Source: Desulfuromonadaceae bacterium
GTDB taxonomy: Bacteria; Desulfobacterota; Desulfuromonadia; Geobacterales; Pseudopelobacteraceae
Assembly: GCA_028683855.1 (NCBI GenBank)
Contig: JAQUHA010000001.1
Location: forward strand, 1 to 64,000
Direction: 5' to 3'
Length of the DNA stretch: 64,000 bases
The position numbers and the translations under genes are program-made. Every line of letters begins with the position of its first letter. Positions within the stretch are counted from its first letter, which is position 1. Below the pieces are notes generated by a model that saw only the letters and a program-made list of their open reading frames with translations, was not told where the DNA came from and searched no databases. Below are positions 10,324 to 41,889 of this stretch, piece by piece.

Positions 10324-10378
10324 AATTCCCCCCCGTTTTACGGTAACCGCGATTATAAAAAGCAGATACGAGGTATAA

Positions 10379-24695: not shown

Positions 24696-24794
24696 CTCCT
24701 TCACAGCCTGAAAATTCCCGCCGGCTGCGTTTCCATTTTAAAATCCACCTGCAGATCCTATCATCAATATTTAGCTGGTTCAGGAAAAGAGTGT

Positions 24795-24917
24795 CTAAAG
24801 TGGTTGATTCGAGCTGACTTTCCATAAAGCATCATTATCGAGCAGAATGCCGCCAAGGACTGACATTTCAGCTTCGATATTCTGAGGCGGGAGTCTTTTG
24901 GAAATGGTCGAGTTCAT
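24795..24917 (-). pseudogene. N-terminal remnant of replicative helicase DnaB
   Basis: A 40-codon frame too short for most gene finders. Its start (KRLPPQNIEAEMSVLGGILL) is the conserved N-terminal opening of DnaB, then it diverges after DNDALWKV and stops at TAG. Only the first part of the primase-interaction domain survives, with no ATPase. It lies 10 bases after the peptidase-like gene on the same strand and marks the left border of the accessory island, suggesting that a phage- or plasmid-like replication module was cut off here. Confidence 0.75.
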
Positions 24918-24927
24918 AATGAATCCT

Positions 24928-25335: not shown

Positions 25336-25498
25336 GGTTATTCTCTCCTGTGTTGATTTTCCTTCTGGTAAGAGTCACGGCAGTGGATGTTTAAATTTCA
25401 AAATAATTGTTGATGTGGTATTTATTCTAGGCAGATGAAGGATAAGCAATTAACTTTTCACTATGTTATGTAGGCAGGGTTTAATAAGGGTAGGTTGA

Positions 25499-26602
25499 AT
25501 GACAGATAAATTTTCAACATGGCTCAACAAACCGGAATGCTTCACTGACCTACTCCCTTGTGCTCGTTTGGTAATTCGTCGTGCCGAGCAGTTGGGGATA
25601 ACGCTTGATGATTCCTATATGCAGGCTGGCGATTCGGGAGAGTATCAAGCAGCCGTTGCCAGCAACCTTTGGCAGTTCATTAAAGAAGAGTCTGAAAGCA
25701 TTGCGCAAAAAGCGACTAAATACCTTGTAGAGCTCGACTATAAGGGGCTTGCCACGTTCATCAGTCGCGAATTCATAGACAGCTGCATTGATCAGCGCCG
25801 CAACGACAGTCCTTTCCACGCTTACTATCGCCATATGCGCTCTGTACTATCCGAAGCAAAAGACATCAACTACAAACCGATGCCACGAACCGGTTCCTAT
25901 TTTGCCTGGTCACACAAGCCTGACCTTGCTTTCCTTCCAGATGACAATAACTTTCGTATCAAAAATCTGAATTTCAAAGAATGGACTTCAAGCACTATCT
26001 CATTCAGTGAGATTCACAAGAAAACCGCCATGATTCAACTTTCTCATCATTATTGGGATGAATCACTGCGAGTCATACTGGACGACTACCTGCACCCCAT
26101 TCGTGAACTGGTGACGTTTGTTACAGTGAAATATCCTCTTATTCCCAGCGTAGAATATGAGTCGGATACTGCTGATGATGACGGCGAAGAATCACAACGA
26201 ACTCCGAGAGATACTTTTGTAAATCCTGATTCATCAGGTGGTGATGACTCATGGATGCGCCAACTTCCGGTATTGGGGCAATCAATTATCGAAACGGATC
26301 TTGAAAGAATAGCTCAAGACGCAGTTGCAAAACTTACTTCCAAAGAAAGAATAGTTCTGTGCAGTCTTGAGGCATCTTTAACTCCAGAAGAAATAGCGGC
26401 AAATCTTGGCAAGAAAGGTGTCAGCAGCGTAAGTAATTACAAAGCGGATGCAATCAAAAAACTTCACAAGGAATGGGTACGCTGGAGCCTGCCAGACAGC
26501 GAGTATTATTCCGTTGCTGAAGATGAACTGCGGATTTTTTACAAAAAAGTAATTTCGATTTGTAAAGAGGCGATTGACTGCCGTGATAGCAGAGAAGGGT
26601 AA
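25499..26602 (+). CDS. Sigma-factor-like protein, copy 1
   Basis: A 367-residue protein. Residues 279-322 form a sigma region-4-like helix-turn-helix (LTSKERIVLCSL...LTPEEIAANLG). Residues 84-120 (FISREFIDSCIDQRRNDSP) resemble the end of an ECF-type region 2. The whole chain is homologous to the protein at 30514-31608; both share SPFHAY.RH.R.V, the S.T...SEI segment and a central P.REL..FV..KY block. The same zinc-finger partner type lies nearby (27328-28452), supporting a sigma/anti-sigma pair. The assignment rests on these features and on context, not on a full family match. It has an acidic linker at about 221-250. The ATG follows AGGT. Confidence 0.65.
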   Translation: MTDKFSTWLNKPECFTDLLPCARLVIRRAEQLGITLDDSYMQAGDSGEYQAAVASNLWQFIKEESESIAQKATKYLVELDYKGLATFISREFIDSCIDQRRNDSPFHAYYRHMRSVLSEAKDINYKPMPRTGSYFAWSHKPDLAFLPDDNNFRIKNLNFKEWTSSTISFSEIHKKTAMIQLSHHYWDESLRVILDDYLHPIRELVTFVTVKYPLIPSVEYESDTADDDGEESQRTPRDTFVNPDSSGGDDSWMRQLPVLGQSIIETDLERIAQDAVAKLTSKERIVLCSLEASLTPEEIAANLGKKGVSSVSNYKADAIKKLHKEWVRWSLPDSEYYSVAEDELRIFYKKVISICKEAIDCRDSREG

Positions 26603-26653
26603 GATTCATCGTAATTGACAACATAATAACCGAGCCTGAATTGGAGGGATATC

Positions 26654-26932
26654 GTGACCGCCTTAAAAAAAGTTCCAAAATTTAATACAGAGGACGACGA
26701 GCGTGATTTTTGGTCAACTCATGATGCGACGGACTATCTTGATTTTTCTCAAGCAGAGGAAACAGTCTTTCCCAACCTGAAGCCATCGACAAGGGCTATT
26801 TCTCTGCGCCTGCCGGTTTCGTTGATTGACAGGCTGAAGATGCTGGCCAATAAAAAGGACGTTCCCTATCAATCTCTCTTGAAATTTCTTCTGGCAGAAA
26901 AGGTTGATGAAGCTTTTCATCATGTGAAATGA
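26654..26932 (+). CDS. BrnA/CopG-like ribbon-helix-helix antitoxin
   Basis: A 92-residue protein starting at GTG with GGAGG six bases upstream. The N-terminal half (DDERDFWSTHDATDYLDFS) and the C-terminal ribbon-helix-helix (AISLRLPVSLIDRLKMLANKK) match the BrnA/CopG antitoxin layout, in which the C-terminal part binds operator DNA. No BrnT-like toxin is next to it; the following 97-residue gene is not recognisably BrnT. It is either an orphan antitoxin or a DNA-binding regulator of the surrounding sigma/anti-sigma module. Confidence 0.75.
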   Translation: MTALKKVPKFNTEDDERDFWSTHDATDYLDFSQAEETVFPNLKPSTRAISLRLPVSLIDRLKMLANKKDVPYQSLLKFLLAEKVDEAFHHVK

Positions 26933-26933
26933 C

Positions 26934-27227
26934 ATGAAAGACTACGACACGATCTTTCAGTCCGTGAGTGCCATTGCCGAACAGATACAGGGTTTGCAAG
27001 CAGTTGCCGTGGTTCAATATACGCCAGTTGTGGAAACCATTATCGCCACTTGCAGCCGCGATATCCGGCAGATCGAACAGACGCTCGATGGTCTGCTTGA
27101 TTTCTGCTGCCACGAACAAGCGCTTCTGCTCTATCGCCGTCTCTGCCGCTATTACTTCGATATTGACCCCGCTGCCACGGTAAGATACGTCAACGCTTAT
27201 CGCGAATTGTGGGATTCAGAGCTATAG
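26934..27227 (+). CDS. Unknown small helical protein
   Basis: A 97-residue, mostly helical protein without signal or membrane segment. It contains a Cys pair (FCCHEQALLLYRRLCRYY) that could bind metal, and aromatic residues near the C-terminus. It begins one base after the BrnA-like gene's stop codon, so it is almost certainly co-translated with it. I recognise no family. A toxin role is possible because of its position after an antitoxin-like gene, but nothing in the sequence shows this. Confidence 0.6.
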   Translation: MKDYDTIFQSVSAIAEQIQGLQAVAVVQYTPVVETIIATCSRDIRQIEQTLDGLLDFCCHEQALLLYRRLCRYYFDIDPAATVRYVNAYRELWDSEL

Positions 27228-27327
27228 TTGAATGAGGCTTGAATTGATTTTAATTCCCTCGAATTCGAGGGGTTTAAAAATAGAGATAGATTCAACAGAT
27301 CTGAAATTGGAATAAGGGACATCAAGC

Positions 27328-28452
27328 ATGAGTAGATACAATGATGAACTAAAACTCAAACTGGCCTGGCAGTCGGCACTTGAACAGCGCACCTGCCCTG
27401 GTTCAGATATTCTGTGTGCGGAAACTATTGATGACAATCTGCAGAAGCATTTGTCCTTTTGTGAAACATGTCGTGAGAACCGGGCGATGCAGTTGGAAGA
27501 AAGAACAGCTTGGCAAGGGTTACTTGATAAAATGTCAGGAAAAGCCATGCAACCGGCAAGTGATATTGCAAAGCAGGAAGGCCAAGTGTGGACACTTAAA
27601 AAAGAGTTGGGGAAGTGGCAGGAGGACGGTCGCTATTTTCAGCCACCAATGCTTCTAATACTCAACAAGAGTAAGAACAATGCCGTTTGGAAGGTCGCCC
27701 AGCTTTATGAAGATAAACGACTTTCTGGCAATGGGGATGTGCTGCTTGATGACCGGTTCGGTTTTGCTGAAAGCTGGAATTGTTATGACGTGAGGGAAGC
27801 ATCTCTAGGATTGTGCTTTGGCTGTGTGAAGGAGGAGGAGTTAAAACAGGTTGTCGCTTGCTCTCGTGCTACATATCCGCCAGTGCCAGATGGATCGATT
27901 CTTTCGTTTTTCCGTAGTATGGAGCTTGAGGTAGGGGCGTTTGTTTTACTGCCTGCGGTGGTTGAAGTGCTGGAAAGTGAGAAAGAGTGTGTGTTTGACG
28001 TGATTCAGGGATTGAAGCTGGCAGTAAGCGGTACAAAGAATTTTGTGCTGGAAATTGCTGCCGAGACGCTTGATCTGCTGCGTGGTACGTTCAAGCCGGC
28101 GTTGGTATTGCGTGGAGCTGCATCAAAGCCAGCGGCAGCAAAGTTGACGGACGAACAGAAAAAAATGATTCTGGAACATTGTGCCGTTGTCCCTGTTGAG
28201 ATGAGGCTTTCCGGTGATACGCTGACGGTATCACTTAAATGGTTGCGAGATAAGCCGGTTGAATTGCCTTTGGTGAGGGTGGTTTTGAATGAGGTTGATG
28301 TTGCTTATGCAGTTTTTACAGGCACAGCCGCTGATAAAATTGTCATGGGGTCGCCGTTGTTATCTGGTGTTTTAACTTCGCAGATAAGCTCTTTGAAATT
28401 GAGCTTTATTGAGAACGTATTGATGTTGCATATTACCGTAGAGTCGCATTGA
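27328..28452 (+). CDS. Zinc-finger anti-sigma-like protein, copy 1
   Basis: A 374-residue protein. The N-terminus has the ZAS anti-sigma zinc motif: C23, then H41-LSF-C45-ET-C48. A conserved block follows (EGQVW.L...L..W..DG.Y) and a beta-rich middle region. It is homologous over most of its length to the protein at 31605-32747. No transmembrane segment is evident, so it would be a soluble anti-sigma factor. It lies in the same strand as the sigma-like gene at 25499, separated by two small genes. By analogy with copy 2 its middle or C-terminal part may be a proteolysis or sensing region (inference). Confidence 0.65.
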   Translation: MSRYNDELKLKLAWQSALEQRTCPGSDILCAETIDDNLQKHLSFCETCRENRAMQLEERTAWQGLLDKMSGKAMQPASDIAKQEGQVWTLKKELGKWQEDGRYFQPPMLLILNKSKNNAVWKVAQLYEDKRLSGNGDVLLDDRFGFAESWNCYDVREASLGLCFGCVKEEELKQVVACSRATYPPVPDGSILSFFRSMELEVGAFVLLPAVVEVLESEKECVFDVIQGLKLAVSGTKNFVLEIAAETLDLLRGTFKPALVLRGAASKPAAAKLTDEQKKMILEHCAVVPVEMRLSGDTLTVSLKWLRDKPVELPLVRVVLNEVDVAYAVFTGTAADKIVMGSPLLSGVLTSQISSLKLSFIENVLMLHITVESH

Positions 28453-28501
28453 ATAGAAAAGATAAAAGCCATTTAATAGTTGTTATCAAGGAGTCGTAGG
28501 A

Positions 28502-29512
28502 ATGAAAAAGCCAGCAAAAACCAGTTCACCTGAAACCGCTTTTGCAGAAGTGGTCAACCTGATCCACTCGGCACGTCAACGGGCGTTTCAGGCGATCAAT
28601 ACAACCCTGATCGATTTGTATTGGCAGGTTGGCGAATACATCAGCCGCAAGATTGAAAGCGCAGAATGGGGTGATGGCGTGGTCGAACAGCTTGCCGCCT
28701 ACATTGCCCGTACTCAGCCTGGTTTGAGGGGATTCACACGTCGAAATCTTTTTCGTATGAGACAATTTCACGAGACATATCGAGGTGATGAAAAAGTCGC
28801 GCCACTGGTGAGACAATTATCGTGGACTCATAATCTGATTATCCTCAGTCAGAGCAAGCGCGAGGAAGAACGGGAGTTTTATCTGCGAATGGTCATCAGG
28901 GAAAAATGGAGCAAGCGAGAACTTGAACGACAGTTCCGGACAGCTCTGTTTGAGCGAATCATTCTGAACCCAGTAAAAGTGTCACCAGTGGTGACACAAA
29001 TTTATCCGGACGCTCTGAATCTTTTCAAGGATTCGTATCTGGTTGAATTTCTGGAGTTACCGGACGGGCATGACGAGTCTGATTTGCACCAGGGATTGTT
29101 GCATAGGTTGAAGGAGTTTCTGAATGAGTTGGGGAGGGATTTCTGTTTTGTCGGTTCCGAATTTCCTGTGCAGGTTGGCAAGCGTGATTTTGCTCTGGAT
29201 CTGCTGTTTTTCCATAGGGGGTTGAATTGTCTGGTGGCGATTGAGTTGAAGGTCGGGCGATTTGAACCGGAGTATCTTGGCAAGCTGGGGTTTTATCTGG
29301 AGGCGCTTGATCGGGATGTGAAAAAGAGTCACGAAAATCCGGCTATTGGCGTGTTGCTCTGCGCCAGCAAGGATGCCGAGGTGGTAGAGTATGCGCTCAG
29401 CCGTTCACTCTCTCCTGCTATGATTGCCGAATACCAGACACAGTTGCCGGATAAGAAGCTGCTGCAAGCCAAACTGCATGAGTTTTATCTGCTTAATATG
29501 CGTGAGGAATGA
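28502..29512 (+). CDS. DUF1016 (YhcG-like) PD-(D/E)xK nuclease-family protein
   Basis: A 336-residue protein. The N-terminal half is the DUF1016 helical region (INTTLIDLYWQVGEYISRK, LSWTHNLIILSQSK). The C-terminal half is the nuclease-like domain with FALDLLFFHRGLNCLVAIELKVG, giving the D...ExK catalytic pattern, then the FEPEYLGKLGFYLEALD helix. Relatives are frequent in mobile and defence-rich islands; the substrate is not known. It has a good ribosome-binding site (AAGGAG) and follows the anti-sigma-like gene by 49 bases. Confidence 0.9.
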   Translation: MKKPAKTSSPETAFAEVVNLIHSARQRAFQAINTTLIDLYWQVGEYISRKIESAEWGDGVVEQLAAYIARTQPGLRGFTRRNLFRMRQFHETYRGDEKVAPLVRQLSWTHNLIILSQSKREEEREFYLRMVIREKWSKRELERQFRTALFERIILNPVKVSPVVTQIYPDALNLFKDSYLVEFLELPDGHDESDLHQGLLHRLKEFLNELGRDFCFVGSEFPVQVGKRDFALDLLFFHRGLNCLVAIELKVGRFEPEYLGKLGFYLEALDRDVKKSHENPAIGVLLCASKDAEVVEYALSRSLSPAMIAEYQTQLPDKKLLQAKLHEFYLLNMREE

Positions 29513-29637
29513 TGAAAAAGGGTTGATTGAGACGGTTGTGGAGAGATGGTTGTTTCTATCACCGCTGAAAAACAGATTGGAAATATTTGGGGCTTTTTTG
29601 AAGGTGTATTGTTTTTAAATTAGGTGGTTAGCTTGAT

Positions 29638-29653
29638 TTCCGGACGTCCGGAA
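29638..29653. repeat. Perfect 16-base palindrome
   Basis: TTCCGGACGTCCGGAA is perfectly self-complementary. It sits just before the REP-like pair and could be a protein-binding site or part of the repeat unit. Confidence 0.7.
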
Positions 29654-29668
29654 TCTTGTAGATTATCG

Positions 29669-29715
29669 TTCCCACGCTCCAGCGTGGGAATGCATCAAGT
29701 GACGCTCCAGCGTCA
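29669..29715. repeat. REP-like tandem palindromes sharing a CGCTCCAGCG core
   Basis: TTCCCACGCT-CC-AGCGTGGGAA (29669-29690) has perfect 10-base arms, and TGACGCT-CC-AGCGTCA (29700-29715) has perfect 7-base arms. Both have a CC loop. From memory, the first is a dispersed palindrome seen in many proteobacteria and other phyla. No transposase of the RAYT type is adjacent. Confidence 0.75.
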
Positions 29716-30049
29716 AGTCAAGCTGCTGTTGGTGCGCTCTTGCGGGTGGTTTTTGTGGGGATTTAAAGGGTTGTTTTGGGTAAGGATGTGGTTGGAATTT
29801 GCAGTTGTAGGTTTGTGTTGAACAGAGTTCATCTTGAAACGCAACGTTAGGCTACTGGCGATACCGAAAACGTCGCGTTGATGAAACAAACGCGACCAAC
29901 TGTTGATTCTTCATTTTTCATCACGGCCATGACTCTGCAATTTTCAAAATCAACAAAATATTTTTCTTTCTGGTCTTGAATGCTCGATTCTGTTAATACG
30001 TTAAGTTGTTAAAGATGCTTTATAAGAGCCAAGCAAAAGGGGTTTGGAT

Positions 30050-30517
30050 ATGGGGGGCGATACCAGAAGAAAGGGCAATCCGTTCTGGGAACTGGATGCT
30101 TTAAGGAAGTCACTTCCAAGTATTAAAGCACCAGAAAACTGGCAACCATTGTCATATTTCATAAAAATCAGTGACAGGATCCTGCTACAGAAGACATGTG
30201 GAAAATTTCCAGGGGGCAAAACATCGGAGTCATTATCCGAATCAGCCAATCATCCGATATTTATGTTAAAGCGTGAAGGCAACTTCAGTTACCGCTTTTG
30301 CCCATGCTCATCAAAAAACTTCAAGGGATACAGTCAGATTCCTGAAGGCTCGCGTCTTGCCCCTGATGGAAAGATATTTCAGCCAAGTGGCTATATTTGC
30401 CACCAATATCTCATCAACCTGCCACCTCAGAATGACATAGTCAGGCAGGAGAACTTTTTCGGTATTGTCAGGGAGAGCGACATAGTCGGAGATCAATATA
30501 AAGAAGGAATGCAATGA
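30050..30517 (+). CDS. Unknown protein at the head of the sigma/Lon/ATPase operon
   Basis: A 155-residue soluble protein with no recognised family. The ATG at 30050 is preceded by AAAAGGGG at 7 bases and is preferred over the in-frame TTG at 30044. The middle is basic and contains CPCSSKNFKGY and a later YICHQYLINL, so it has three cysteines that might coordinate metal. Its stop overlaps the start of the sigma-like gene (ATGA at 30514), so it is translationally coupled to the system and probably belongs to it. Confidence 0.65.
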   Translation: MGGDTRRKGNPFWELDALRKSLPSIKAPENWQPLSYFIKISDRILLQKTCGKFPGGKTSESLSESANHPIFMLKREGNFSYRFCPCSSKNFKGYSQIPEGSRLAPDGKIFQPSGYICHQYLINLPPQNDIVRQENFFGIVRESDIVGDQYKEGMQ

Positions 30518-31608
30518 AGACTGGACTCAATGAATGGCTGAACTCTTCAGACGGCAAAGCTGTTATTTATGATTGCGCCATCAATATTGATTTGAAGGCT
30601 CGCAGAAGCTCGATCAATCTGGCACAGATATTCAGCGAAGAGTTCACGAGTGACTCTAAAGAGTTGCGAGATATAATAGCTGCTGAGTTGATGATGTATA
30701 TTTTAGAACATCACGAAGCAGTCGGTAGAGACATTTCCGAGGACGTTAAAAATAAAGATATTTCTGCAATTGCCGCTAAGATTAACACCAGATTCCTGAA
30801 TCACGTTATTGACAAGCGTCGCACCTATCCTGTCAGCCCCTTCCATGCATACCAACGCCATTTGCGAAACGTTATATCCAAGTCTTCAGATATTCGCTAT
30901 GTCCCCACGGATGATGGTTCCTTTTTCGCGTACTCAGATGATGAGTTTATTGACTATTTGCCGTATAGCTACTGGGGGTTGTCATTTGAGGGGTGGTCAA
31001 GCCCAACTGTTCCCCATAGCGAGATTGATGAACAGGCCGGTATGCTCTCCTTATCTCGTTTTTACTGGAATGAAGCGTCTGGAAAATACGAGTTGGAATA
31101 CCTGCAGCCACTACGTGAATTGACTCGGTTCGTGTTTGCCAAGTACTCCTTTGCAGCCAAGCGTCAGGAAATTAAAACAGGTAGCGACGAAGGGACTATT
31201 GAATCCGAAGCATTTGATCTACTAAAGCCCATCCAGCTTGCCGGTGATCCGCTTGGTTCACGTCACCGCCAATTAGCTGACTTGAATTATGATGTTGTTG
31301 AAAATGGACTTAAAATACTTGCAGATCAATGTCTGAGCGGTCTTGATGATAGACAGGCTGAAATACTCTGGCGGGCAGCTGACGGACAGAAGCTTGATGA
31401 AATTGCAAAACATTTGGGTGAGAAGGGACCAAGCAATATTCATTACCATATTAAAAAAGCTCAGAGTCATATCCGTAAGTTCTGGTCACTGTGGGGGAAT
31501 GCGCAGTTGCCTGGATTCAATGAAGAGGATGAGGAAGAACAATTTATTTTTGCAGAAAAAATCGCCGAGCTTTGTAAAAAGCGTTGCGGGGGCCGTGAAG
31601 GAATATGA
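30514..31608 (+). CDS. Sigma-factor-like protein, copy 2
   Basis: A 364-residue homolog of the protein at 25499-26602. A region-2-like part lies at about 83-125 (FLNHVIDKRR, SPFHAYQRHLRNVIS), and a region-4-like helix-turn-helix at about 273-320 (LDDRQAEILWRAADGQKLDEIAKHLG). It is coupled by 4-base overlaps to the gene before it and to the zinc-finger gene after it (31605). Together with that partner I read it as a promoter-recruiting factor held inactive by an anti-sigma protein (inference). It is larger than a minimal ECF sigma factor because of a central conserved block of about 100 residues also found in copy 1. Confidence 0.68.
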   Translation: MKTGLNEWLNSSDGKAVIYDCAINIDLKARRSSINLAQIFSEEFTSDSKELRDIIAAELMMYILEHHEAVGRDISEDVKNKDISAIAAKINTRFLNHVIDKRRTYPVSPFHAYQRHLRNVISKSSDIRYVPTDDGSFFAYSDDEFIDYLPYSYWGLSFEGWSSPTVPHSEIDEQAGMLSLSRFYWNEASGKYELEYLQPLRELTRFVFAKYSFAAKRQEIKTGSDEGTIESEAFDLLKPIQLAGDPLGSRHRQLADLNYDVVENGLKILADQCLSGLDDRQAEILWRAADGQKLDEIAKHLGEKGPSNIHYHIKKAQSHIRKFWSLWGNAQLPGFNEEDEEEQFIFAEKIAELCKKRCGGREGI

Positions 31609-32747
31609 GGACACACATTCCGATGGAATCTACTAATAGTGCACTTAAAATGAAGCTGGCGTGGCAGGAAGCCTACCGTATTCGCTCGTGCCCAGGTGAT
31701 GATATGCTGTTTGCAGAACAACTGACAATTGAAACCCAGAGGCATCTGAAGATATGTCCTGCCTGCAGCGATGTCAGGAACTCTTCCGCACAGTCGAGAA
31801 CCGCCTGGCGCGAATTGGCCGGTAGACTTTCTGATGGTGCTTCGCCACACAAGGCAACAGAAGTTGCACCGGTTGAGGGTCAGGTTTGGGCTCTTAGAGA
31901 TGACCTATCGCATTGGGGGAACGATGGCAATTATTACCGAGCGCCACGGATACTTCTGCTAGGAATCGAAGGCAATGCGCTTAAGGTCGCACAGATTTAT
32001 CACGATATCTCTCTTTTGTCTGATGGCGATGTGTTGTTATCCGGTGATCGATTTGGTTTTGCCCAGGCATGGAACATTTACACCATTCACCTGGGTATGT
32101 TGAGTCATTGCCTTGGCGGGGTTAAGCAGGAAGAGATTCAGACTGTGCTGAATGAGGCTGGCAAGTCTCGGAAGGATATAGACGAAAACTCTATTTTGTA
32201 CTGGTTCAGGACGACAGAAGTAATAGTCGGTGCGGAGATTGCGATGCCTGCGGTGGCGCAGTTGTTAGTGGAGCTGGAGTCATTAGTATCAGTACCTTCT
32301 TTTGTGCATGAGATATTTGGCGAAGTTTCAGGACTGATTGAAAAGCTAAAGGAATATGTTCTCCCAGATAATTATGATTCTGCGTTCGGGTTTCTAGCTG
32401 GTGTAAGACCACAGCAATTACAGCTTGCCGCCGCAGATAGCGAAAATACTATACCGGTTAACATTGTACATAAGACTGCTGATGGCGTGCTGATCGAAAC
32501 AATACAAGCAACAATTACAGACGATGACTGGCAGAGCAACCGGACGTATCTCATCTCTGGTAAATTGTCTCGTGAAGCAAAGACAGGATTACATCTTTTG
32601 GCAACACTGTCTTATCATGGCGAAACTATAGCGGAGTGCCAAAATAGGATTGAGGAAGGTTCACCATATTTTGACATTCTTTTCAAAGATGTTCCTGAAG
32701 ATTTGGCACAAATCGATAATGTAATAATTTTATTGGTGAATACATGA
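31605..32747 (+). CDS. Zinc-finger anti-sigma-like protein, copy 2
   Basis: A 380-residue protein with the ZAS pattern: C29, then H47-LKI-C51-PA-C54. It is homologous to the protein at 27328-28452 through the EGQVWAL, GDVLLSGDRFGFAQAWN and GAEIAMPAVAQLL blocks. The C-terminal 130 residues differ most between copies and look beta-rich. No membrane segment is seen. The start overlaps the sigma gene (ATGA); an ATG six codons later (31623) is also possible. Its end overlaps the Lon-like protease gene, so enzyme and presumed substrate would be made together. I infer that it sequesters the sigma-like protein until cleaved. Confidence 0.7.
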   Translation: MRTHIPMESTNSALKMKLAWQEAYRIRSCPGDDMLFAEQLTIETQRHLKICPACSDVRNSSAQSRTAWRELAGRLSDGASPHKATEVAPVEGQVWALRDDLSHWGNDGNYYRAPRILLLGIEGNALKVAQIYHDISLLSDGDVLLSGDRFGFAQAWNIYTIHLGMLSHCLGGVKQEEIQTVLNEAGKSRKDIDENSILYWFRTTEVIVGAEIAMPAVAQLLVELESLVSVPSFVHEIFGEVSGLIEKLKEYVLPDNYDSAFGFLAGVRPQQLQLAAADSENTIPVNIVHKTADGVLIETIQATITDDDWQSNRTYLISGKLSREAKTGLHLLATLSYHGETIAECQNRIEEGSPYFDILFKDVPEDLAQIDNVIILLVNT

Positions 32748-34327
32748 AAGGGCTAGATTGGAACATAGAGCAGGTAGTTGCCAGTCTTAGACGCGGCAAT
32801 GAATATTTGTCTGCAACCGCAAACCGCAATTTTTCTAATCCACACGATAATATCTGGGGAAATGGGGACAAGTTTGTTGAACAAGCAGACCTCATTGCAA
32901 GCAATTTGTCGGTAACACACCGACGGCTATTCCAGTCAGTATGCCTTGCGTCATATTTGCTAAATCCAAGTAAAGCCCCTGCTGAAGCGGAACACTGGTT
33001 GCGCAGCAATTGTAACATTCACGATTTAATCGGTATTGATAGCACATGGGAGCAGATCGTCTCTTGGAAATGGGGACGGGTTGCGATTGCCGTTGCTGAT
33101 ACGGAACGCAAGAATAGAGACAGATTATTTTATTGTCTTACGGTATGCAGTCCATCAAGTGAAATGACGACTGTTCTTCCTGTCTGGGCACAAAACTGCA
33201 TGGATGAGGATGCCAGAGCGGCAGTTGAAACCGCTTTAGAGCTGGTGAAACGGAAGTTTCCAAGAGTTACATTTTTTATTTGGCCGATTCTGGATCAATG
33301 TTGTTATGCCATAAATGGAAAGTCTTTGGGGCTTCCTGTCTATCTTGGGGCGTTTTCTCTTGCTACAGGCATTGTGACACCTGATGTTTTATCTACTGGC
33401 GCAATAACTAGAGCTGGCACCATAGACAAAGTTGAGTATTTGGCTGAAAAGTTGGATATTGCTGCAAAAGAACGATTTATAGCATTCATATATCCGGCAC
33501 CTGTTAATGATCCGCTATGCAATGCAAAATCCACTACAGTTGAAAAATTCGCAGTTCGTACTTTGCGAGAAGCAGAGATTAGTTGGGCTCAGAATATCCC
33601 TAGTATTGCGATTCAAATTTCCAGTTTTGAGTACCTTTTCTATGATCCATGCCGTTTGATTGAGTCACTCCCAGGCCAAACGGGTGTTATGTTGTCTGTC
33701 ATTGAAAATTGTGCTGACAGAATATCCGGCGTCATCAGTTCGCTCCTTACAACTGGAGATTTAAAGATCATCGATTCTGTGGATATATTTACCTCAAGGG
33801 TTGAAAATCTAACAGGTCATCCAGATGATCAGGGCATATTGATGTCAAGTGCTTACGGTGCAATTTTCGATCAATCATTGGTGCAATCTATCTCACACTA
33901 TCGTGCGGATGTTTCATATCGTATAGCCATGCTACTGGCTAAACTGAAAATCACTAGTGGAACAAATGAATATCAGGAGTGGTGCGAAGTAGCAAAAAAT
34001 ATCAATCGCAGAATCTCTTTCTCCAATTTACAACACAAGCTTTCAGAATTTAATATTGTTATAAATGGTTATAAAAAGGTCGAAAACTTTGAAGATCTTT
34101 GCGAAATAAAAAATGAGTGGTGGTTTAAATCAGAATCAATCAATGCTATTGCATCATTGTCAGACTATTTTGACAAAGTAATTGAATATGCAAATTTACC
34201 TCATGGGTGGGGCAGTGGATATATATTGGATAAGTGGATAAATGAATCTAAAGTTCTAGTACACTACGAATTAGCGCAGTCTACAATTGCTAACATACTG
34301 GAAAGGCTAAACAATGAAAAGCGCTGA
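32744..34327 (+). CDS. Lon-type (S16) protease-domain protein without AAA+ module
   Basis: A 527-residue protein. Residues 105-245 fit a Lon proteolytic domain: the strand-rich start (WKWGRVAIAVADT), then the nucleophile segment INGKSLGLPVYLGAF with S194, then PDVLSTGAITRAGTIDKVEYLAEK with K236. The Ser-Lys distance is 42 residues against 43 in E. coli Lon (S679/K722), and the PDV..TG.IT..G motif is kept. There is no Lon N-domain or AAA+ ATPase in the same chain. The C-terminal 280 residues are of unknown, mostly helical type and could be the regulatory part. The gene overlaps its neighbours on both sides, and the next gene supplies a separate ATPase. Confidence 0.75.
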   Translation: MKGLDWNIEQVVASLRRGNEYLSATANRNFSNPHDNIWGNGDKFVEQADLIASNLSVTHRRLFQSVCLASYLLNPSKAPAEAEHWLRSNCNIHDLIGIDSTWEQIVSWKWGRVAIAVADTERKNRDRLFYCLTVCSPSSEMTTVLPVWAQNCMDEDARAAVETALELVKRKFPRVTFFIWPILDQCCYAINGKSLGLPVYLGAFSLATGIVTPDVLSTGAITRAGTIDKVEYLAEKLDIAAKERFIAFIYPAPVNDPLCNAKSTTVEKFAVRTLREAEISWAQNIPSIAIQISSFEYLFYDPCRLIESLPGQTGVMLSVIENCADRISGVISSLLTTGDLKIIDSVDIFTSRVENLTGHPDDQGILMSSAYGAIFDQSLVQSISHYRADVSYRIAMLLAKLKITSGTNEYQEWCEVAKNINRRISFSNLQHKLSEFNIVINGYKKVENFEDLCEIKNEWWFKSESINAIASLSDYFDKVIEYANLPHGWGSGYILDKWINESKVLVHYELAQSTIANILERLNNEKR

Positions 34328-36623
34328 ATCAAAACATAATCCTTATGATTTTGCAAACCCTGTTTCGGATAAAAATATTTTTAGCGGCAGGAAGAAGCAG
34401 TTAGAAGAGATTAGGTATTATCTGGCGCAGGCAGTAAATGCGCCAAGGGCAATTAATCTGGCTTTGCTTGGAGAAAGAGCCTCAGGAAAGACCAGTATGC
34501 TTAATATGATTTCTATTGAAGCAAAAGAACTAGGTTTTTGTGTTGTCAGGATAGATCTCAATGAGGGTGACGTTGAAAACCAGCTATCTTTTTTCTACAA
34601 GCTATTTGATAGCATTTTATCAGAAGCTCTCGAATTTACTAAAGAAGATAGTAATTATTGTTTTGGGGGGAAAGCTGGGAAAACCTACGATGCTTATCTT
34701 GATATGACATGCGCGTATGATGTCCCAGAGAATAAGATTTGGGCACCATTCTTCTTTCCAGTTCAGTATGCAAAAGCGATGAGCAAAGGCTGTCTGGATA
34801 TAAAAGTAGGGGATGCCATTATTAAAAAAGATCTGCAAACTCTGAGCAATGAGGTAGTAGCACCTATTGCACTTCTGTTTGACGAGTGTAATGTGCTCAC
34901 GGAAAACAGAATCTTATTGGAGATGATGCGAAACATTTTTATGAATCTGCCCGGATATATGCTCGTTTTCACTGGAACACCAAATTTGTTTCCGTTGATG
35001 GACGAGGTCTTTTCCCCAATAGTAAGGCAATTTAAAAGGATAAATATTGATCCGTTTGTTAGTTGGCGTGAAATCAGGGAGTGTATTGAAAAACCACTTA
35101 AGAGCATTAGCAAAAATATTCAAGATGTAATGGAGGTTGATACTTTTATTGATTTAACTGACATACAGAGTCTGACTGGTGGTAAGCCATACGAAATACA
35201 GCTTCTGTGTCATTATATGTATAAAGGTTACGAATCAGGCCATTCGGATAAAATGCAGTTAAGTATTGATGTTTTTGATGAGGTTTTAATAGATTTGGCA
35301 AAAGGTAAAGATATTAGATCGAGGATAATTATCTCTAAATTACAAGAAGTTAGCGCCAAGTCAATTAAAGCGCTTAGATTACTAGCATCATGTTGCGGAA
35401 AAGCCACTTTTGATGACATATGGGCGATAGAGTGCTTGGTTAACGATAATAATAGATGGGATAAGCATGAGTTGTATGATCAGTTAGAATATCTTGAGAA
35501 CAATAATATTTTGAATGTCATGAATGACATAATATTTTTTAACGGAGATGATTTTGATAGGATTTATTCAAAATATTTTTCTAGGCAGCATAATAATTTT
35601 AACTTGAGCATTAATGACTATCCTCAGGATATTTTCACGAAAATAGCACTAGATTCAAAATTACGAAAATTCTCAATGATGCCATTCGATCAGATTAAAA
35701 AGAATCTGGAAGATGTCAGTTATAGCAAAGAGCTGAGGAGCCAATACATTGATTTAGAGTTAGATATAAACATTGATGGCAAAGATAAGCTTATTAAAGA
35801 AATTATAGTCTCCTATAGCAACAAAGATATTACTTCACTCAAAAATTCACTTGGGTTGGCCATCCATATTTACTGGTTGCTTTACGAACAGATTGCTAAT
35901 AGTTCAAGCTCAATTGATATATTGATTATAGATATACTTTCAAAAAAACTCAGTATGAAGCTGATGTATTATTATGACGGCAATGAAAAAACTTCTAATA
36001 TTACCGAGATGCTATCTGATATGAAAAATAGAGGAGAAGGTGTATCGATTAATTTTGAATATATTATTGAAAGTTTTAATTTACCTACTATTGATGACAT
36101 AAAGATCATTGTTCGCGAAACTTTCGATGATGATATTAAAGAATTTATATCCAAACAGCATGTAAAACAGATGGCCGAAATATATTTAGATAATGGCAGT
36201 AAGGAGCTTTGTAAATTAAATGCAGATTTAGCCTGTAATTTCAATGAAGCACTTGATGCAAATGCAGCTAATAATATTGGTTATGTATATATGGCTTTAG
36301 GTGAATTTGATAGTGCTGTAAAAATGTTTAACACCGCGATAAAACAAGACGACAAGCATAATACAAAGCAACTAGCTTACTACAATCTTGGAGTACTAGA
36401 GATTTATGCTTCAAATATTCTTAAATCAGTTGAATACTTTACTAAATGCATTGATGAAATCGAAATACATGGCGGTTCTTCCGAATGTGCATGTATATTT
36501 TTAATCGGTTTTGAAAATAATAAAATAATTACCATAGAAGATAAGAATGATCCTGATTTGCTGATGGCTTCTAAGAACGCTATTGCAGTTATTAAAAACA
36601 ACTTTAACTGTGAAGTTCAATGA
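34314..36623 (+). CDS. P-loop ATPase with C-terminal TPR repeats (STAND/ORC-like sensor candidate)
   Basis: A 769-residue protein. It opens with the NPYDFANPV...FSGRKKQLEEI lead typical of ORC/STAND-type ATPases, then Walker A GERASGKT (53-60), Walker B IALLFDE (185-191) and a sensor-like VFTGTPNLF (218-226). A winged-helix-like part follows to about 420. A long helical region leads to TPR-like repeats at about 651-715 (NNIGYVYMALGEFDSAVKMFNTAI). The build matches signal-sensing NTPases of conflict systems. It overlaps the Lon-like gene by 14 bases. The gene is visibly richer in A and T and in AAT/ATA codons than core genes such as gyrA, consistent with transfer. Confidence 0.78.
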   Translation: MKSAESKHNPYDFANPVSDKNIFSGRKKQLEEIRYYLAQAVNAPRAINLALLGERASGKTSMLNMISIEAKELGFCVVRIDLNEGDVENQLSFFYKLFDSILSEALEFTKEDSNYCFGGKAGKTYDAYLDMTCAYDVPENKIWAPFFFPVQYAKAMSKGCLDIKVGDAIIKKDLQTLSNEVVAPIALLFDECNVLTENRILLEMMRNIFMNLPGYMLVFTGTPNLFPLMDEVFSPIVRQFKRINIDPFVSWREIRECIEKPLKSISKNIQDVMEVDTFIDLTDIQSLTGGKPYEIQLLCHYMYKGYESGHSDKMQLSIDVFDEVLIDLAKGKDIRSRIIISKLQEVSAKSIKALRLLASCCGKATFDDIWAIECLVNDNNRWDKHELYDQLEYLENNNILNVMNDIIFFNGDDFDRIYSKYFSRQHNNFNLSINDYPQDIFTKIALDSKLRKFSMMPFDQIKKNLEDVSYSKELRSQYIDLELDINIDGKDKLIKEIIVSYSNKDITSLKNSLGLAIHIYWLLYEQIANSSSSIDILIIDILSKKLSMKLMYYYDGNEKTSNITEMLSDMKNRGEGVSINFEYIIESFNLPTIDDIKIIVRETFDDDIKEFISKQHVKQMAEIYLDNGSKELCKLNADLACNFNEALDANAANNIGYVYMALGEFDSAVKMFNTAIKQDDKHNTKQLAYYNLGVLEIYASNILKSVEYFTKCIDEIEIHGGSSECACIFLIGFENNKIITIEDKNDPDLLMASKNAIAVIKNNFNCEVQ

Positions 36624-36690
36624 CACCAACAAGGGCTATATTTGCTGACTGATCAGAAAAGATAATATCCGTGGCAAGCCCAATATAAAA

Positions 36691-36722
36691 ACAGCCCATT
36701 GAAAAACACTTTATTGGGCTGT
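36691..36722 (+). terminator. Hairpin after the ATPase gene
   Basis: ACAGCCCA and TGGGCTGT form a perfect 8-base stem around a 16-base loop, 67 bases after the ATPase stop codon. The T-run after it is weak, so it may be an inefficient terminator or an mRNA-protecting hairpin. Confidence 0.5.
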
Positions 36723-36759
36723 CAGGTTTAACAATCTGAAATCAGTAAAGGAGCCCTAA

Positions 36760-37575
36760 TTGGCTGGACATTTTTTCCAAAGATTACGGACCTATTATAC
36801 TGAAGTTGCTTCAGTGCTTCGTGGTGAGGCAAGCGTAGCCTCAGTTTTCCCAAATATGACCGATGTAGGAATGTCTCGAGAAAATTTATACGCAGAATTT
36901 TTGCGTCTGCACGCACCCTCCAAATGCAATGTTTTTTTAGGTGGATTTCTTTTTGGAGAGGACGGCACTGAATCCGCGCAACTCGACGTTATTGTAACAA
37001 CAGACACAACTCCGCGATTTAACTTTCACAATAAAAATGGCCTCGGCAAGTCTTTTTCTCCAGTAGAAGGCACGCTAGGTATTGCTTCAATCAAATCCAC
37101 ACTAAACAAGAATGAACTTGAAAACGCACTCGCTGGTATTGCTAGCATTCCTGCTTCTACACCCCTTGGAAGTCGAGTCAATCCTAGTTTTAACGTCAAG
37201 GACTACGAAGATTGGCCGTATAAAATTATCTACGCGTCTAAAGGTATATCTGCTACTTCACTGTTAACGCATCTAAATAACTACTATATCCGCAATCCGA
37301 GTATCCAATTTGGCCGTAGGCCAAACATTATTCATGTATCCGGAAAGTACGTAATCCTTAGAGCTACAAATGCAGTAGGCATCTGGGATGCGAACAAACA
37401 TGAGGACATGAATTTAGAAGCTGGCACATTCCACCTGATTGATATAGACCCAGATCTTCAAGGAATAATGTGGGTGTTAAACGCTCTGCAGCAAAATGCA
37501 ACAGCATCAACTCATATTCTATACTCGTATATTGATATATTGAACCGGCTGAATGGTTTGCCTGAAAAAATATAG
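36760..37575 (+). CDS. DUF6602-like, possible PD-(D/E)xK-fold protein
   Basis: A 271-residue protein starting at TTG with AAGGAG upstream. Family landmarks are NLYAEFLRLHAP (43-53), a QLDVIVT strand with D76, and PVEGTLGIASIKSTL with K112. This resembles the D...(E)xK layout of nuclease-like folds, but the residue two before the Lys is Ser rather than Glu or Asp, so activity is uncertain. It comes 136 bases after the ATPase gene, behind a hairpin, and is probably a separate unit in the same defence-type island. Confidence 0.68.
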   Translation: MAGHFFQRLRTYYTEVASVLRGEASVASVFPNMTDVGMSRENLYAEFLRLHAPSKCNVFLGGFLFGEDGTESAQLDVIVTTDTTPRFNFHNKNGLGKSFSPVEGTLGIASIKSTLNKNELENALAGIASIPASTPLGSRVNPSFNVKDYEDWPYKIIYASKGISATSLLTHLNNYYIRNPSIQFGRRPNIIHVSGKYVILRATNAVGIWDANKHEDMNLEAGTFHLIDIDPDLQGIMWVLNALQQNATASTHILYSYIDILNRLNGLPEKI

Positions 37576-37615
37576 ACGGTATTCAACAAGTTATTCGGCA
37601 AAAAGGGCAGCTTTC

Positions 37616-37711
37616 ATGAACCAACAAACCTTACAATCACTCCTTTCCGCTCTGATCTCCTGCTGGGAAAACGAGATCGTCGAATTCAAAGAACATCGGA
37701 GATTTATATAG
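37616..37711 (+). pseudogene. N-terminal remnant of an AlbA_2/Schlafen-type ATP-binding protein
   Basis: A 31-residue frame whose end, WENEIVEFKEHR, is the conserved opening of AlbA_2 (RecG-like, Schlafen-type) proteins, where EFKE precedes the core domain. It then runs into a stop. The next full-length gene but one (38002) encodes an intact member of the same domain class, so this is either a decayed relative or a breakpoint left by replacement. Confidence 0.6.
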
Positions 37712-37721
37712 GAGAGTAACT

Positions 37722-38012
37722 ATGTCCAATGTCCATAATGAACCACTACGGCAGCTTGTTGCAATATTGCAAGAGCACTTAGCAAACAATGCAACCGAAG
37801 TCGTTATTGACCATGATACTGTATCTGTCGCATTCCCTAAAAGTCACCCGTTTGACGATCGAATGGTGAATTGGAATACACTACGAGTATGGGCCAAGAG
37901 TGAAGGATGGGATGTTCGAGCACTCACAGAAGAAACCCCCGCAGAAGACCAGCACAGGCCATACATATTGTTCTCAAAATCCTGTAGGCATAAGGGAAAC
38001 GATGATGAATAA
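37722..38012 (+). CDS. Small protein of unknown function
   Basis: A 96-residue soluble acidic protein with GGAGAG before its ATG. It contains a VVIDHDTVSVAFP strand pair and a charged C-terminus (CRHKGNDDE). No family recognised. Its last 11 bases overlap the start of the AlbA_2-type gene, so the two are co-translated and may work together. Confidence 0.65.
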   Translation: MSNVHNEPLRQLVAILQEHLANNATEVVIDHDTVSVAFPKSHPFDDRMVNWNTLRVWAKSEGWDVRALTEETPAEDQHRPYILFSKSCRHKGNDDE

Positions 38013-39681
38013 GTCCGAACTCATCGATTTGATTGATCGTCTCCGCCAGGAACCAACCGAGACAGAGTGGTTTGAATTCAAAGTCAACAATGAAGAGCCT
38101 CAAGCGATTGGTGAATATATCTCTTCGCTTGCTAATTCGGCCTCTATGCACGACCAGGAGTATGGCTATTTGGTGTTTGGCGTCAAGGACAAAACTCACG
38201 AGGTTGTCGGAACCGAATTCAAACCCCGCAAAAAGAAGATTGGCAATCAGGAGCTGGAAAACTGGCTGATAACACAACTACAACCATCTATGGACTTCAA
38301 AATATTCGAATTCGACTACAGCGGGAAACCGATTGTCCTGTTCCGAATTGAACCGGCAACCAACACACCTATAAGCTTTAAAGGAATCGAGTACATCCGC
38401 GTTGGCTCCTACAAAAAGAAGCTGGCGGATCATCCGGAAAAAGCCCGAAAAATCTGGATCAAAAAACCGGCTGTTGATTGGTCAGCACAGATTTGTGAAA
38501 GTGCATCGCTGGATGACCTCGACCCGAGAGCCGTTGCCAGGGCACGAGACGAATACAAGAAAAAGTATCCTGATAAAGCGGTAGAGGTTGATTCATGGGA
38601 CGACGTCACATTTCTGAATAAGGCAAAAATTACCATTAAGGGCAAAATCACCCGAACTGCCATTCTTCTCCTTGGCAAAGAGGAGTCTGAACATTTCATT
38701 TCTCCATCCGTAGCCAAAATCAGTTGGATATTGAAAAACGACCAGAATGTCGAGAAGGATTATGAGCATTTTGCACCACCATTTCTTCTCAATACAGATG
38801 TGCTCTTTAGTAAAATTCGCAACCTGAAATACCGCTATCTCCAGGAAAACACGCTATTCCCCACGGAGATAACTCAATATGAACCGTATGTCATCCGTGA
38901 GGCACTGCATAATTGTATTGCTCATCAGGATTATGAGCTGCGCGGTCGAATCAACGTGATCGAACTGTCGGACGAACTTCTTTTTACCAATCTGGGAAAA
39001 TTTATCCCTGAATCTGTTGAGACGGTGATTGAGCAGGATGCGCCTGCAGAACATTACCGCAACCATTTCCTGGCGAACGCCATGGTTAATCTAAAAATGA
39101 TCGATACGCAGGGTGGCGGCATCAAGAAAATGTTTATGATGCAGCGCAGCCGCTTCTTTCCACTGCCCGAGTATGATCTGAGCGAGCCGGAAAGGGTGAA
39201 AGTAAAGATTTATGGGAAGATTCTGGATAAAAATTATACCCAGATATTGATTGCCAAGACCGATCTCGATCTGAAGACGGTCATCTGCCTTGATAAGGTG
39301 CAAAAGAAAAAACGCCTGAACGAGCAGGAGTACAAATTCATCAAACCCAAAAAACTGGTGGAAGGAAGATACCCGAACCTCTTTGTTGCCGCACATATAG
39401 CTGCCGTTACGGGAGATAAAACCTCATACATTCGTAATCGGGCGTTCGACGATGCACATTACAAGGAGATGATACTATCTTTTATCAAACAGTACGGGGC
39501 TGCCAGCAGGAAGGATATTGACAATCTCTTGTTAGACAAACTTTCTGATGCTTTAGACGAACAACAGAAGAAAAACAAGGTCAGAAACCTCATCTATGCG
39601 ATGGCTAATCGCGACAAAACTATTGTAAATAAAGGTAGTTCTGTAAAGTCAAAGTGGGTATTGGCTGGTAATACTATTTAG
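38002..39681 (+). CDS. AlbA_2/Schlafen-type domain protein with RecG-like ATP-binding C-terminal part
   Basis: About 559 residues. The AlbA_2 domain (residues 1-150) has TETEWFEFKVNNEEP, EYGYLVFGVKDKTHEVVG and IEYIRVGSYKK. A helical linker leads to a HATPase_c_4-like region with REALHNCIAHQDY and the GGGIKKMF segment, as in proteins annotated RecG-like or 'ATP-binding'. The C-terminal part looks like a winged-helix (IKQYGAASRKDIDNLLLDKL). The frame is open to 37900, but ATGs at 38002 and 38005 fit the family start. Such proteins are frequent in defence islands and some act as regulators or RNA-binding effectors; the role here is not shown. Confidence 0.8.
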   Translation: MMNKSELIDLIDRLRQEPTETEWFEFKVNNEEPQAIGEYISSLANSASMHDQEYGYLVFGVKDKTHEVVGTEFKPRKKKIGNQELENWLITQLQPSMDFKIFEFDYSGKPIVLFRIEPATNTPISFKGIEYIRVGSYKKKLADHPEKARKIWIKKPAVDWSAQICESASLDDLDPRAVARARDEYKKKYPDKAVEVDSWDDVTFLNKAKITIKGKITRTAILLLGKEESEHFISPSVAKISWILKNDQNVEKDYEHFAPPFLLNTDVLFSKIRNLKYRYLQENTLFPTEITQYEPYVIREALHNCIAHQDYELRGRINVIELSDELLFTNLGKFIPESVETVIEQDAPAEHYRNHFLANAMVNLKMIDTQGGGIKKMFMMQRSRFFPLPEYDLSEPERVKVKIYGKILDKNYTQILIAKTDLDLKTVICLDKVQKKKRLNEQEYKFIKPKKLVEGRYPNLFVAAHIAAVTGDKTSYIRNRAFDDAHYKEMILSFIKQYGAASRKDIDNLLLDKLSDALDEQQKKNKVRNLIYAMANRDKTIVNKGSSVKSKWVLAGNTI

Positions 39682-39706
39682 TCAAGTTTAGTCATGTTTA
39701 GTCAAG
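39677..39706 (+). repeat. Three tandem 10-base repeats, TTTAGTCAAG type
   Basis: TTTAGTCAAG, TTTAGTCATG and TTTAGTCAAG follow each other directly, beginning within the stop codon of the AlbA_2-type gene. A fourth partial TTTAGTCA follows at about 39711. The repeat supplies several in-frame TAG stops; likely a slippage product. Confidence 0.6.
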
Positions 39707-39862
39707 TTGGTTTTAGTCATTGGAAGGCAATTTACGTCGCCCAGGATTATTCCGGGGACATAATACCATTATCCCTCTCGTCCCATCACTCTGAATACAG
39801 CAACCCGCGACGAGGAGCGTCAGAATCGTTAGTTCAAGCAATTAAACCAAAGGATATGCAGC

Positions 39863-40876
39863 ATGACTGAATCCCAAATCATCCTCTACTCCACTCCCGA
39901 CGGTGACATTAAAGTTGACACCGTCTTGCAGAATGAAACCATCTGGCTGACCCAGAGTGCCATGGCTGAGCTGTTTGGTGTCAATGTTCCCGCCATATCC
40001 AAGCACCTGTCCAATATCTATGAAGAAGGAGAATTGAGCCGAGAGTCAACTGTTTCCAAAATGGAAACAGTTCAAAACGAGGGGGGACGGCAGATTGCCC
40101 GTAATAAGGATTTTTACAATCTGGACGCCATAATCGCCGTAGGCTATCGGGTCAACTCCAAGCGTGCCACCCAGTTTCGCATCTGGGCTACCGGTATTCT
40201 GAAAGAGTACATCATCAAAGGTTTTGCCATGGATGATGAACGGCTGAAAAAAGTCGATACCTGGGACTATTTTGACGAGTGGCTGGCTCGCATCCGGGAT
40301 ATCCGGGCATCTGAAAAGCGTTTTTACCAGAAAATCCGCGATATCTATGCTACCGCCATCGATTATGACAAAAGCTCCGATCTGGCTCAGTTGTTTTTCA
40401 AGAAGGTTCAGAACAAGATGCTCTGGGCCATTAGCGGCAAGACCGCCGCAGAATTGATAGAATCGCGCAGTAATCCGGAGCTACCCAACATGGGGCTGAC
40501 ATCTTGGCAGGGTTCCATTGTCCGCAAGCCGGATGTGGCCACTGCCAAGAACTATCTACAGGCCGATGAGATTAAAGACCTCAACGAAATTGTTACCATG
40601 TATCTGGACTATGCTGAACGGCAGGCCCGACAGCGCAAGACTGTCACTATGGAGCAGTGGTCGGAAAAACTCGACGCCTTTCTGTCGTTCAATGAGCATG
40701 TGCTCTTGACCCATGCCGGAAAAGTAAAGGCCGAGGTGGCCAAGGAAATAGCCGAACAGCGGTATGAAAAATTTGACCAAAAACGCAGAGCCGAAGAAGC
40801 CCTGGCCGCTGATAAAGAGGATCTGCAAGCTTTGGAAGAACTGGAAAAACGACTGATGGAGCAAAAGAAACCATAA
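39863..40876 (+). CDS. RhuM-family protein
   Basis: A 337-residue protein matching the RhuM ('virulence protein') family over its length. Landmarks are TIWLTQSAMAELFGVNVPA (an HTH-like N-terminus), YNLDAIIAVGYRVNSKRAT, FRIWATGILKEYIIKGFAMDDERLK and a C-terminal coiled coil rich in Lys, Glu and Ala. The name comes from a Salmonella pathogenicity-island gene whose biochemical function is unclear. Relatives are common in mobile islands. It is a stand-alone gene here, with AAAGGA before its ATG. Confidence 0.88.
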   Translation: MTESQIILYSTPDGDIKVDTVLQNETIWLTQSAMAELFGVNVPAISKHLSNIYEEGELSRESTVSKMETVQNEGGRQIARNKDFYNLDAIIAVGYRVNSKRATQFRIWATGILKEYIIKGFAMDDERLKKVDTWDYFDEWLARIRDIRASEKRFYQKIRDIYATAIDYDKSSDLAQLFFKKVQNKMLWAISGKTAAELIESRSNPELPNMGLTSWQGSIVRKPDVATAKNYLQADEIKDLNEIVTMYLDYAERQARQRKTVTMEQWSEKLDAFLSFNEHVLLTHAGKVKAEVAKEIAEQRYEKFDQKRRAEEALAADKEDLQALEELEKRLMEQKKP

Positions 40877-41004: not shown

Positions 41005-41886
41005 ATGTTATTTCCCGCACACAATCCCGCACAGCAGGTACTCAACTGGCATTGCCGTAGCAATAACATCTCTGAATCAAATATATCCGCGGCAGCTGTG
41101 GATATGCGTGAGCATGTATACCGGATTCGCAAGATGTACGGAATGCCAATCGGACGCACAATCCCATACGATGATGCCGATTTCCGGGCAGCATATATGC
41201 TGGCCTATTTTCCCTATTACATCGAACCTATCTGCCATGTTCTGGAATCCGCCGAACTTCCTGATTCATTATTTTCCACGGGTACTCTGAAAGCTGCATT
41301 CTTTGGTGGCGGCCCATGCCCGGAAGCTCTTGGCCTTGCCGCATATCTCCGCAAGCGTGCTCCACGCCTTGCAAGAGCAGAAGCAACTGCATTCGACCGT
41401 CAGCCCGACTGGAACCCCATTCAGCAGGAACTTGTTCCGATGATGCTGCCATCATACAAATCAGAACATACGACATTTGCCCTGAACAGCCGTTCGTGCG
41501 ATGTGGTAGAATGTCTTGCTCGGCAGTGTACTTGCGGTGTAGCTGATATGGATATTATCATCGGCCAGAACTTCCTGACGGAAGTCTATGCAAACCGCAC
41601 CCGTGCCATTGCAACATTCGAGCGGTTGATACAACGTTCAACGTGCCGTTATCTGGTTTTTGTTGAGAACCAGTACGATCAGGTAAAGGTACTGATGAAC
41701 GAACTCTCTGCCTGCCTTTATGACAAAGGACTTACAACATCCCGTCCAACAGCAGAGACAAGAACCATTCGCCCAAATTTCCGTTTGCCACAGGTCATGC
41801 AACAGCACCTGTTCACTTGGGAGGATGGGCTCAAACCACGATACAGCGTCACGTTCCACCACATGGTTCTTGAGATAGCGAGGTAA
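41005..41886 (+). CDS. Possible class I SAM-methyltransferase-fold protein
   Basis: A 293-residue protein with GGAGG seven bases before its ATG. The segment KAAFFGGGPCPEALGLAAYL (about 94-113) looks like motif I of a Rossmann methyltransferase, followed by an acidic residue in ATAFDRQ and a DIIIGQNFLTEVY strand resembling motif IV. An NPPY- or DPPY-type catalytic motif is absent, so it is not a standard DNA adenine or cytosine methylase. It lies 3 bases before the DUF1848 gene, so the two are coupled. Target unknown. Confidence 0.6.
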   Translation: MLFPAHNPAQQVLNWHCRSNNISESNISAAAVDMREHVYRIRKMYGMPIGRTIPYDDADFRAAYMLAYFPYYIEPICHVLESAELPDSLFSTGTLKAAFFGGGPCPEALGLAAYLRKRAPRLARAEATAFDRQPDWNPIQQELVPMMLPSYKSEHTTFALNSRSCDVVECLARQCTCGVADMDIIIGQNFLTEVYANRTRAIATFERLIQRSTCRYLVFVENQYDQVKVLMNELSACLYDKGLTTSRPTAETRTIRPNFRLPQVMQQHLFTWEDGLKPRYSVTFHHMVLEIAR

Positions 41887-41889
41887 CAA

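Follow-up and report, generated by a model that had tools for sequence, protein, structure and literature searches.

The genes at 30050-36623 of a 64,000-nucleotide stretch from a Desulfuromonadaceae bacterium (contig JAQUHA010000001.1, positions 1 to 64,000; hereafter the window) probably form a switch of the Calp/Craspase type that works in the cytosol by releasing a sigma factor: a MazF-like, zinc-motif anti-sigma protein would hold the sigma until it is cut by a Lon-type protease. Across its relatives this module keeps its gene order, the catalytic pair of its Lon proteins and its zinc motif, and the protease type changes together with the C-terminal part (C-part) of the anti-sigma. The operon is real, with the five genes overlapping successively by 4, 4, 4 and 14 bases, as the first-pass annotation had described:

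30050..30517, + strand, small protein whose gene opens the conserved core, with H-P and C-P-C motifs, possibly PemK/MazF-like
30514..31608, + strand, sigma-factor-like protein with region 4 at residues ~253-330, region 2 suggested in the N-terminal part (N-part) and an extra segment between
31605..32747, + strand, predicted anti-sigma: zinc motif in the N-part (residues 1-80), MazF-like domain (residues 85-191, bases 31857-32177) and beta C-domain (residues 282-380, bases 32448-32744)
32744..34327, + strand, Lon-type (S16) protease of 527 amino acids (aa), with Ser194 at 33323-33325 and Lys236 at 33449-33451
34314..36623, + strand, P-loop ATPase with C-terminal TPR, candidate sensor/activator for the window locus

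We examined 28 distinct loci from the phylum and relatives searches, after dropping L076, L077, L079 and L080, which are the same contigs as L011, L014, L015 and L013, respectively, and the marginal or partial anti-sigma matches G084 and G367. Sigma and anti-sigma genes are present in 28/28 loci, counts that are partly by construction because the profiles came from part of these loci, and are accompanied by Lon in 23 loci, by TPR-CHAT in 4 and by neither protease in 1. The small gene is found in 22/28, with W, F, T, H68, P69, P85 and C86 invariant across the 22 aligned rows. That annotation had proposed a search for the same gene order in other genomes and had held that homologous operons lacking the protease or the ATPase would speak against it: we found the order small-sigma-anti-sigma-protease to be constant throughout the 28 loci wherever the genes are present, and of the two partners the protease stays (as Lon or TPR-CHAT) and the ATPase does not. 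The anti-sigma occurs in 19/395 genomes of the phylum (2 of them marginal) and in 3/37 genomes of the genus, and the window genome carries three sigma/anti-sigma pairs, namely the operon, an upstream copy (25499-28452) and locus L004 on contig C57. No match for either protein was found in the plasmid collection, and no description of this sigma/anti-sigma/protease family was found in the literature searched, a search that mostly left subscription papers outside.

The roles of sigma factor, zinc-motif anti-sigma and Lon protease, first assigned from the sequence, are supported. Sigma region 4 is present (profile against the PDB, E=3.5e-6 to FliA), and the structure model (predicted local distance difference test score 76) returns mainly sigma factors in fold comparison. 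Region 2 is suggested only, because the two-domain structure alignments have a root-mean-square deviation (rmsd) of ~21 Å and a Foldseek search with the model had no match at E<=0.001. The protease profile (12 rows) matches archaeal Lon (E=7.9e-17) and CalpL (E=3.1e-4), and the Ser194/Lys236 catalytic pair is retained in 23/23 Lon proteins; most relatives have a C-part ~190 aa longer than that of the window protein, the CRISPR-linked Lon proteins reaching ~710 aa. Profile searches, the only kind made for SAVED in this protein, gave no SAVED by Pfam, and the PADLOC SAVED-Lon models cover just residues 189-244, the Lon part.

In the anti-sigma, the C-H-C-C zinc motif (C/H...HxxxCxxC, as in ZAS / zf-HC2) is invariant in 24/24 rows, two of which are identical. 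Pfam zf-HC2 matches 4/24 members (best E 0.07), and the ZAS profile gave weak, unrelated matches only against PDB sequences. The middle domain is predicted to be MazF-like in fold, with weak sequence similarity to MazF. The model's best Foldseek match by E-value, to cobra venom factor (3.9e-4; rmsd 17, TM score 0.14-0.20), we take as a chance likeness of the beta part. The small protein is possibly PemK/MazF-like as well, its alignment to PemK by hhalign having E=4e-4 at a probability of 35%; its profile found no MazF in the PDB. These likenesses would suit a toxin-antitoxin-like unit, with the MazF-like proteins as RNA-cutting toxins freed by the protease. We consider such a unit highly improbable, since the R-P motif conserved in PemK/MazF relatives (A9) is not retained as such in the anti-sigma, the sequence similarity is weak and a sigma gene stands in 28/28 loci.

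The protease type is exchanged among the relatives. TPR-CHAT replaces Lon in L013, L014, L015 and L078 (CHAT E=1.2e-50, 6.9e-34, 8e-53 and 2e-45). L004, which has Lon, and L014, which has TPR-CHAT, share 91.8% DNA identity over 2,266 base pairs, from before the small gene to approximately codon 220 of the anti-sigma gene, where the likeness ends; the anti-sigma proteins are 92% identical before this break and 24% after it. In its C-part the L004 anti-sigma shares 88% identity with P0007, and in its N-part 39%. The P0014 anti-sigma is the reverse case, with 91% identity to P0002 in the N-part and 17% in the C-part, and its C-part is 50-53% identical to those of L014 and of the window's upstream copy. 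In a comparison that took in 5 Lon and 4 TPR-CHAT loci, the CRISPR-linked rows standing outside it, the first C-part type was found in 5/5 Lon loci and the second in 4/4 TPR-CHAT loci. The simplest reading is that the anti-sigma C-domain fits its protease, and a PDB entry pairing CalpL with a CalpT10 chain would point the same way.

Alternatively, the sigma/anti-sigma pair could merely regulate a cassette whose killing is done by the protease (or TPR-CHAT, helicase-HNH, TIR), with the anti-sigma staying uncut. This would agree with the variety of genes downstream of the pair, which include a Lon-helicase-HNH fusion, BRO-N, TIR, TPR-CHAT and the ATPase. We regard it as unlikely, as it leaves unexplained why, within a single gene, the C-part of the anti-sigma should follow the protease type, and Lon or CHAT, both proteases, is found in 27/28 loci. 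Among these downstream genes, the L004 fusion (9063-11639) joins a Lon N-part to a PIF1/RecD-type helicase and an HNH-like end; the helicase part matches PDC-M16A of the PADLOC phage-defence candidate PDC-M16 (E=7.2e-176), a match that spans neither Lon, sigma nor anti-sigma, and the window has no PDC-M16 helicase. A protein of ~630-650 aa stands behind the Lon/helicase pair in L011 (13380-15263, without Pfam match) and L010 (8687-10648), and BRO-N and TIR genes sit between the anti-sigma and TPR-CHAT genes of L013 (11172-12873).

The comparison with Calp turned out closer than first thought. CalpT is reportedly a MazF homologue, according to the abstract of the Nature paper on Calp. Published reports state that binding of cyclic tetra-adenylate (cA4) makes CalpL cut CalpT, the protein holding the sigma factor CalpS (PMC11417357, PMC12751052). 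CalpL was found in 3/297 genomes with the PADLOC SAVED-Lon model; the third match, G136, is cut by a contig end and was left out, so that the loci compared are L106 and L107. In both, a small gene is followed by a putative sigma gene, a putative anti-sigma gene and CalpL, names that rest on position and on weak similarity to CalpT10, a PDB chain (E=0.34). The window operon shares this order and likewise has a Lon protease with a Ser/Lys pair, a sigma and an anti-sigma predicted to be MazF-like; it differs in having no SAVED match in Lon, a zinc motif at the anti-sigma N-part and no CRISPR.

Craspase/CASP of type III-E (Cas7-11, the TPR-CHAT protein Csx29, Csx30 and CASP-sigma) is resembled by the four TPR-CHAT relatives, which also pair TPR-CHAT with a sigma and an inhibitor; the window protease is Lon, not TPR-CHAT. 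Neither Cas7-11 nor an array was seen in these four loci, arrays having been sought by the repeat scan and Cas7-11 without a profile search. The EACC2/caspase systems (extracytoplasmic function sigma, DUF1822 TPR protein) also couple a protease to a sigma in a predicted conflict system; they have caspase and trypsin parts, and the portion of the source consulted describes no Lon or zinc/MazF-like anti-sigma (eLife 2021, PMC8195603). The authors of one of the two CRISPR systems, Calp and Craspase, suggest that the passage from RNA sensing to sigma release is perhaps a common theme (PMC10028731).

Some relatives of the module lie close to type III CRISPR genes. Among the phylum genomes outside the window's taxonomic order that have good anti-sigma matches and fetched neighbourhoods, 10/16 carry a CRISPR array or cas gene near the anti-sigma:

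L030, Csm5 and TM1812
L034, array, PrimPol and Cas1
L036, array, Cas10 and TM1812
L037, array
L038, array and Cas1
L039, array
L070, Cas1
L071, Cmr4 and TM1812
L073, Csm5 and TM1812/Csx20
L075, array

Cas10 lies on the same contig within 35 kb in 9/16 of these genomes, against 0.39 expected (P ~3e-12, a value that treats the genomes as independent, yet G211/G316/G334 are congeneric, as are G184/G331), and within 20 kb in 7/16, against 0.22 expected. A CARF-like open reading frame in L072, seen by eye only, was left out of the CRISPR count, as were a three-copy repeat at a contig end in L082 and a four-copy short repeat within a long open reading frame in L035. Within the window's taxonomic order, a Csx10-like RAMP protein adjoins L081 (E=4.2e-16, below the cut-off), and the window genome has a strong Cas10 match on another contig only. 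Near the arrays and the sigma/Lon module in L037 (15507-17675), L039 (12307-14529) and L075 (2332-4461; weak Csm6/ring-nuclease match), an adenosine deaminase fused to an N-part adjoins a gene of ~198 aa.

The proximity to CRISPR bears on a further alternative, a general stress or protein-quality response unrelated to phage, for which Lon and an alternative sigma factor, both classic stress components, would be natural parts. The patchy occurrence of the module, the defence-type neighbours in the window and the type III CRISPR genes near its relatives argue against such a response, which we judge quite unlikely.

Several observations weigh against the release switch. Sigma region 2 is not secure, no protease gene was recognised beside the window's upstream copy, and one cross-match joins both C-part types (L004-L015, 57 aa, 42%). 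No CRISPR evidence was found in the remaining 6/16 wider genomes, 3 of them on contigs of 5.8-10.6 kb; L033 and L035, which have full-length neighbourhoods, showed no CRISPR. The repeat scan gave no array in the window, L004, L010-L015 or L078, and the first reading that CRISPR and SAVED are missing from the window locus agrees with the repeat scan for CRISPR and with the profiles for SAVED. By hhalign there is no significant match between the anti-sigma and CalpT (E=0.14), the sigma and putative CalpS (E=0.31), or the small protein and the Calp small gene (E=0.69). The same method fails to join CalpT with MazF, and therefore the lack of detectable homology in the non-protease genes does not argue against their being homologous. 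Finally, the ATPase does not travel with the module; the case for it as a sensor comes from the window operon only. Its TPR (E=1.8e-8) and Walker motifs are recognised and its AAA matches are weak; the gene was found in no other locus tested for it, and its ATPase part has homologues in only 2 other genomes of 395, both unlinked to the module. We accordingly reject a fixed sensing role for the ATPase, which had first been cast as the sensor.

A candidate control element lies upstream of the operon, and an exact inverted copy at the far end of the cassette:

29922..29948, + strand, box CACGG-N14-TTTTCAAA
40928..40954, - strand, inverted exact copy of CACGG-N14-TTTTCAAA

The 3.47 Mb genome has no other exact copy, and the two face each other across the cassette; within one mismatch the genome has 17 matches, compared to 12 for the backward control. 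The box is found at the same spacing upstream (0-2 mismatches) in 9/10 Geobacterales-type loci. Four loci also carry an inverted box on the cassette's far side: the window and, as similar copies, L004, L011 and L013. The box may be the sigma factor's promoter or a mobile cassette end; the right-hand copies face inward, where no gene lies for them to drive. An upstream box would also suit autoregulation if the pair merely regulated its cassette. In 10/10 loci the sigma gene carries a third variant at its 3' end, in antisense orientation, which may reflect coding constraint. A sigma-70 promoter scan showed no excess (21 found, 21.7 in shuffles), and Rfam gave no match in window 24500-40000.

We infer binding, cleavage, sigma release, stimulus, target genes and a defence role, which in the release switch would connect as follows. 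In the resting state the anti-sigma N-part (zinc motif and MazF-like domain) would bind the sigma, with the protease docked on the C-terminal beta domain. The protease would be activated by a stimulus, for which the ATPase/TPR protein is the probable reader in the window; in the CRISPR-linked relatives the activator could be a cyclic-oligoadenylate sensor, such as neighbouring CARF proteins. A cut close to the boundary ahead of the C-domain would set the anti-sigma loose or destabilise it, and the freed sigma would turn on defence genes; by way of the CACGG-N14-TTTTCAAA box these perhaps include the operon itself. The sigma targets are probably anti-phage genes, a role in phage defence suggested by context.

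The surroundings of the operon contain a second sigma/anti-sigma pair:

25499..26602, + strand, second sigma-like copy (30% identity, E=4.7e-43)
27328..28452, + strand, second anti-sigma copy; its C-part is of the type found elsewhere next to TPR-CHAT

A CopG-type antitoxin gene (26657-26929) separates the two, a YhcG/DUF1016 nuclease gene (28502-29512) follows, and the whole (25499-29512) looks like a partly rebuilt copy. Between the operon and the right border lie DUF6602, Schlafen AlbA_2 and RhuM genes (36760-40876). Neighbours matching PADLOC candidates are the YhcG nuclease (PDC-S02), DUF6602 (PD-DExK/NucC-like), RhuM (PDC-S05) and DUF1848. At the right border (41005-42864), a gene family starting MFPxHN is followed by DUF1848 and SSB, an arrangement that recurs in L013 and in part in L011 and L004; this border is likely an insertion hot spot.

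More tentatively, and with rather less confidence than in the switch itself, a Calp-like module may have escaped type III CRISPR to become a stand-alone immune switch. It would combine a constant sigma/anti-sigma front end with interchangeable sensor-proteases (Lon with ATPase/TPR, Lon-helicase-HNH, TPR-CHAT with TIR), swapped by recombination at the anti-sigma domain boundary, the C-domain being a docking and cutting adaptor that travels with the protease. Calp (Lon) and Craspase (TPR-CHAT) are two known CRISPR systems turning RNA sensing into sigma release, and here a single gene family links a common sigma/anti-sigma module to either protease type, whether CRISPR is present or not. The CACGG-N14-TTTTCAAA motif is a candidate promoter box for finding sigma-controlled genes. 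If this picture is true, a transcriptional arm of bacterial immunity would be assembled from exchangeable parts.

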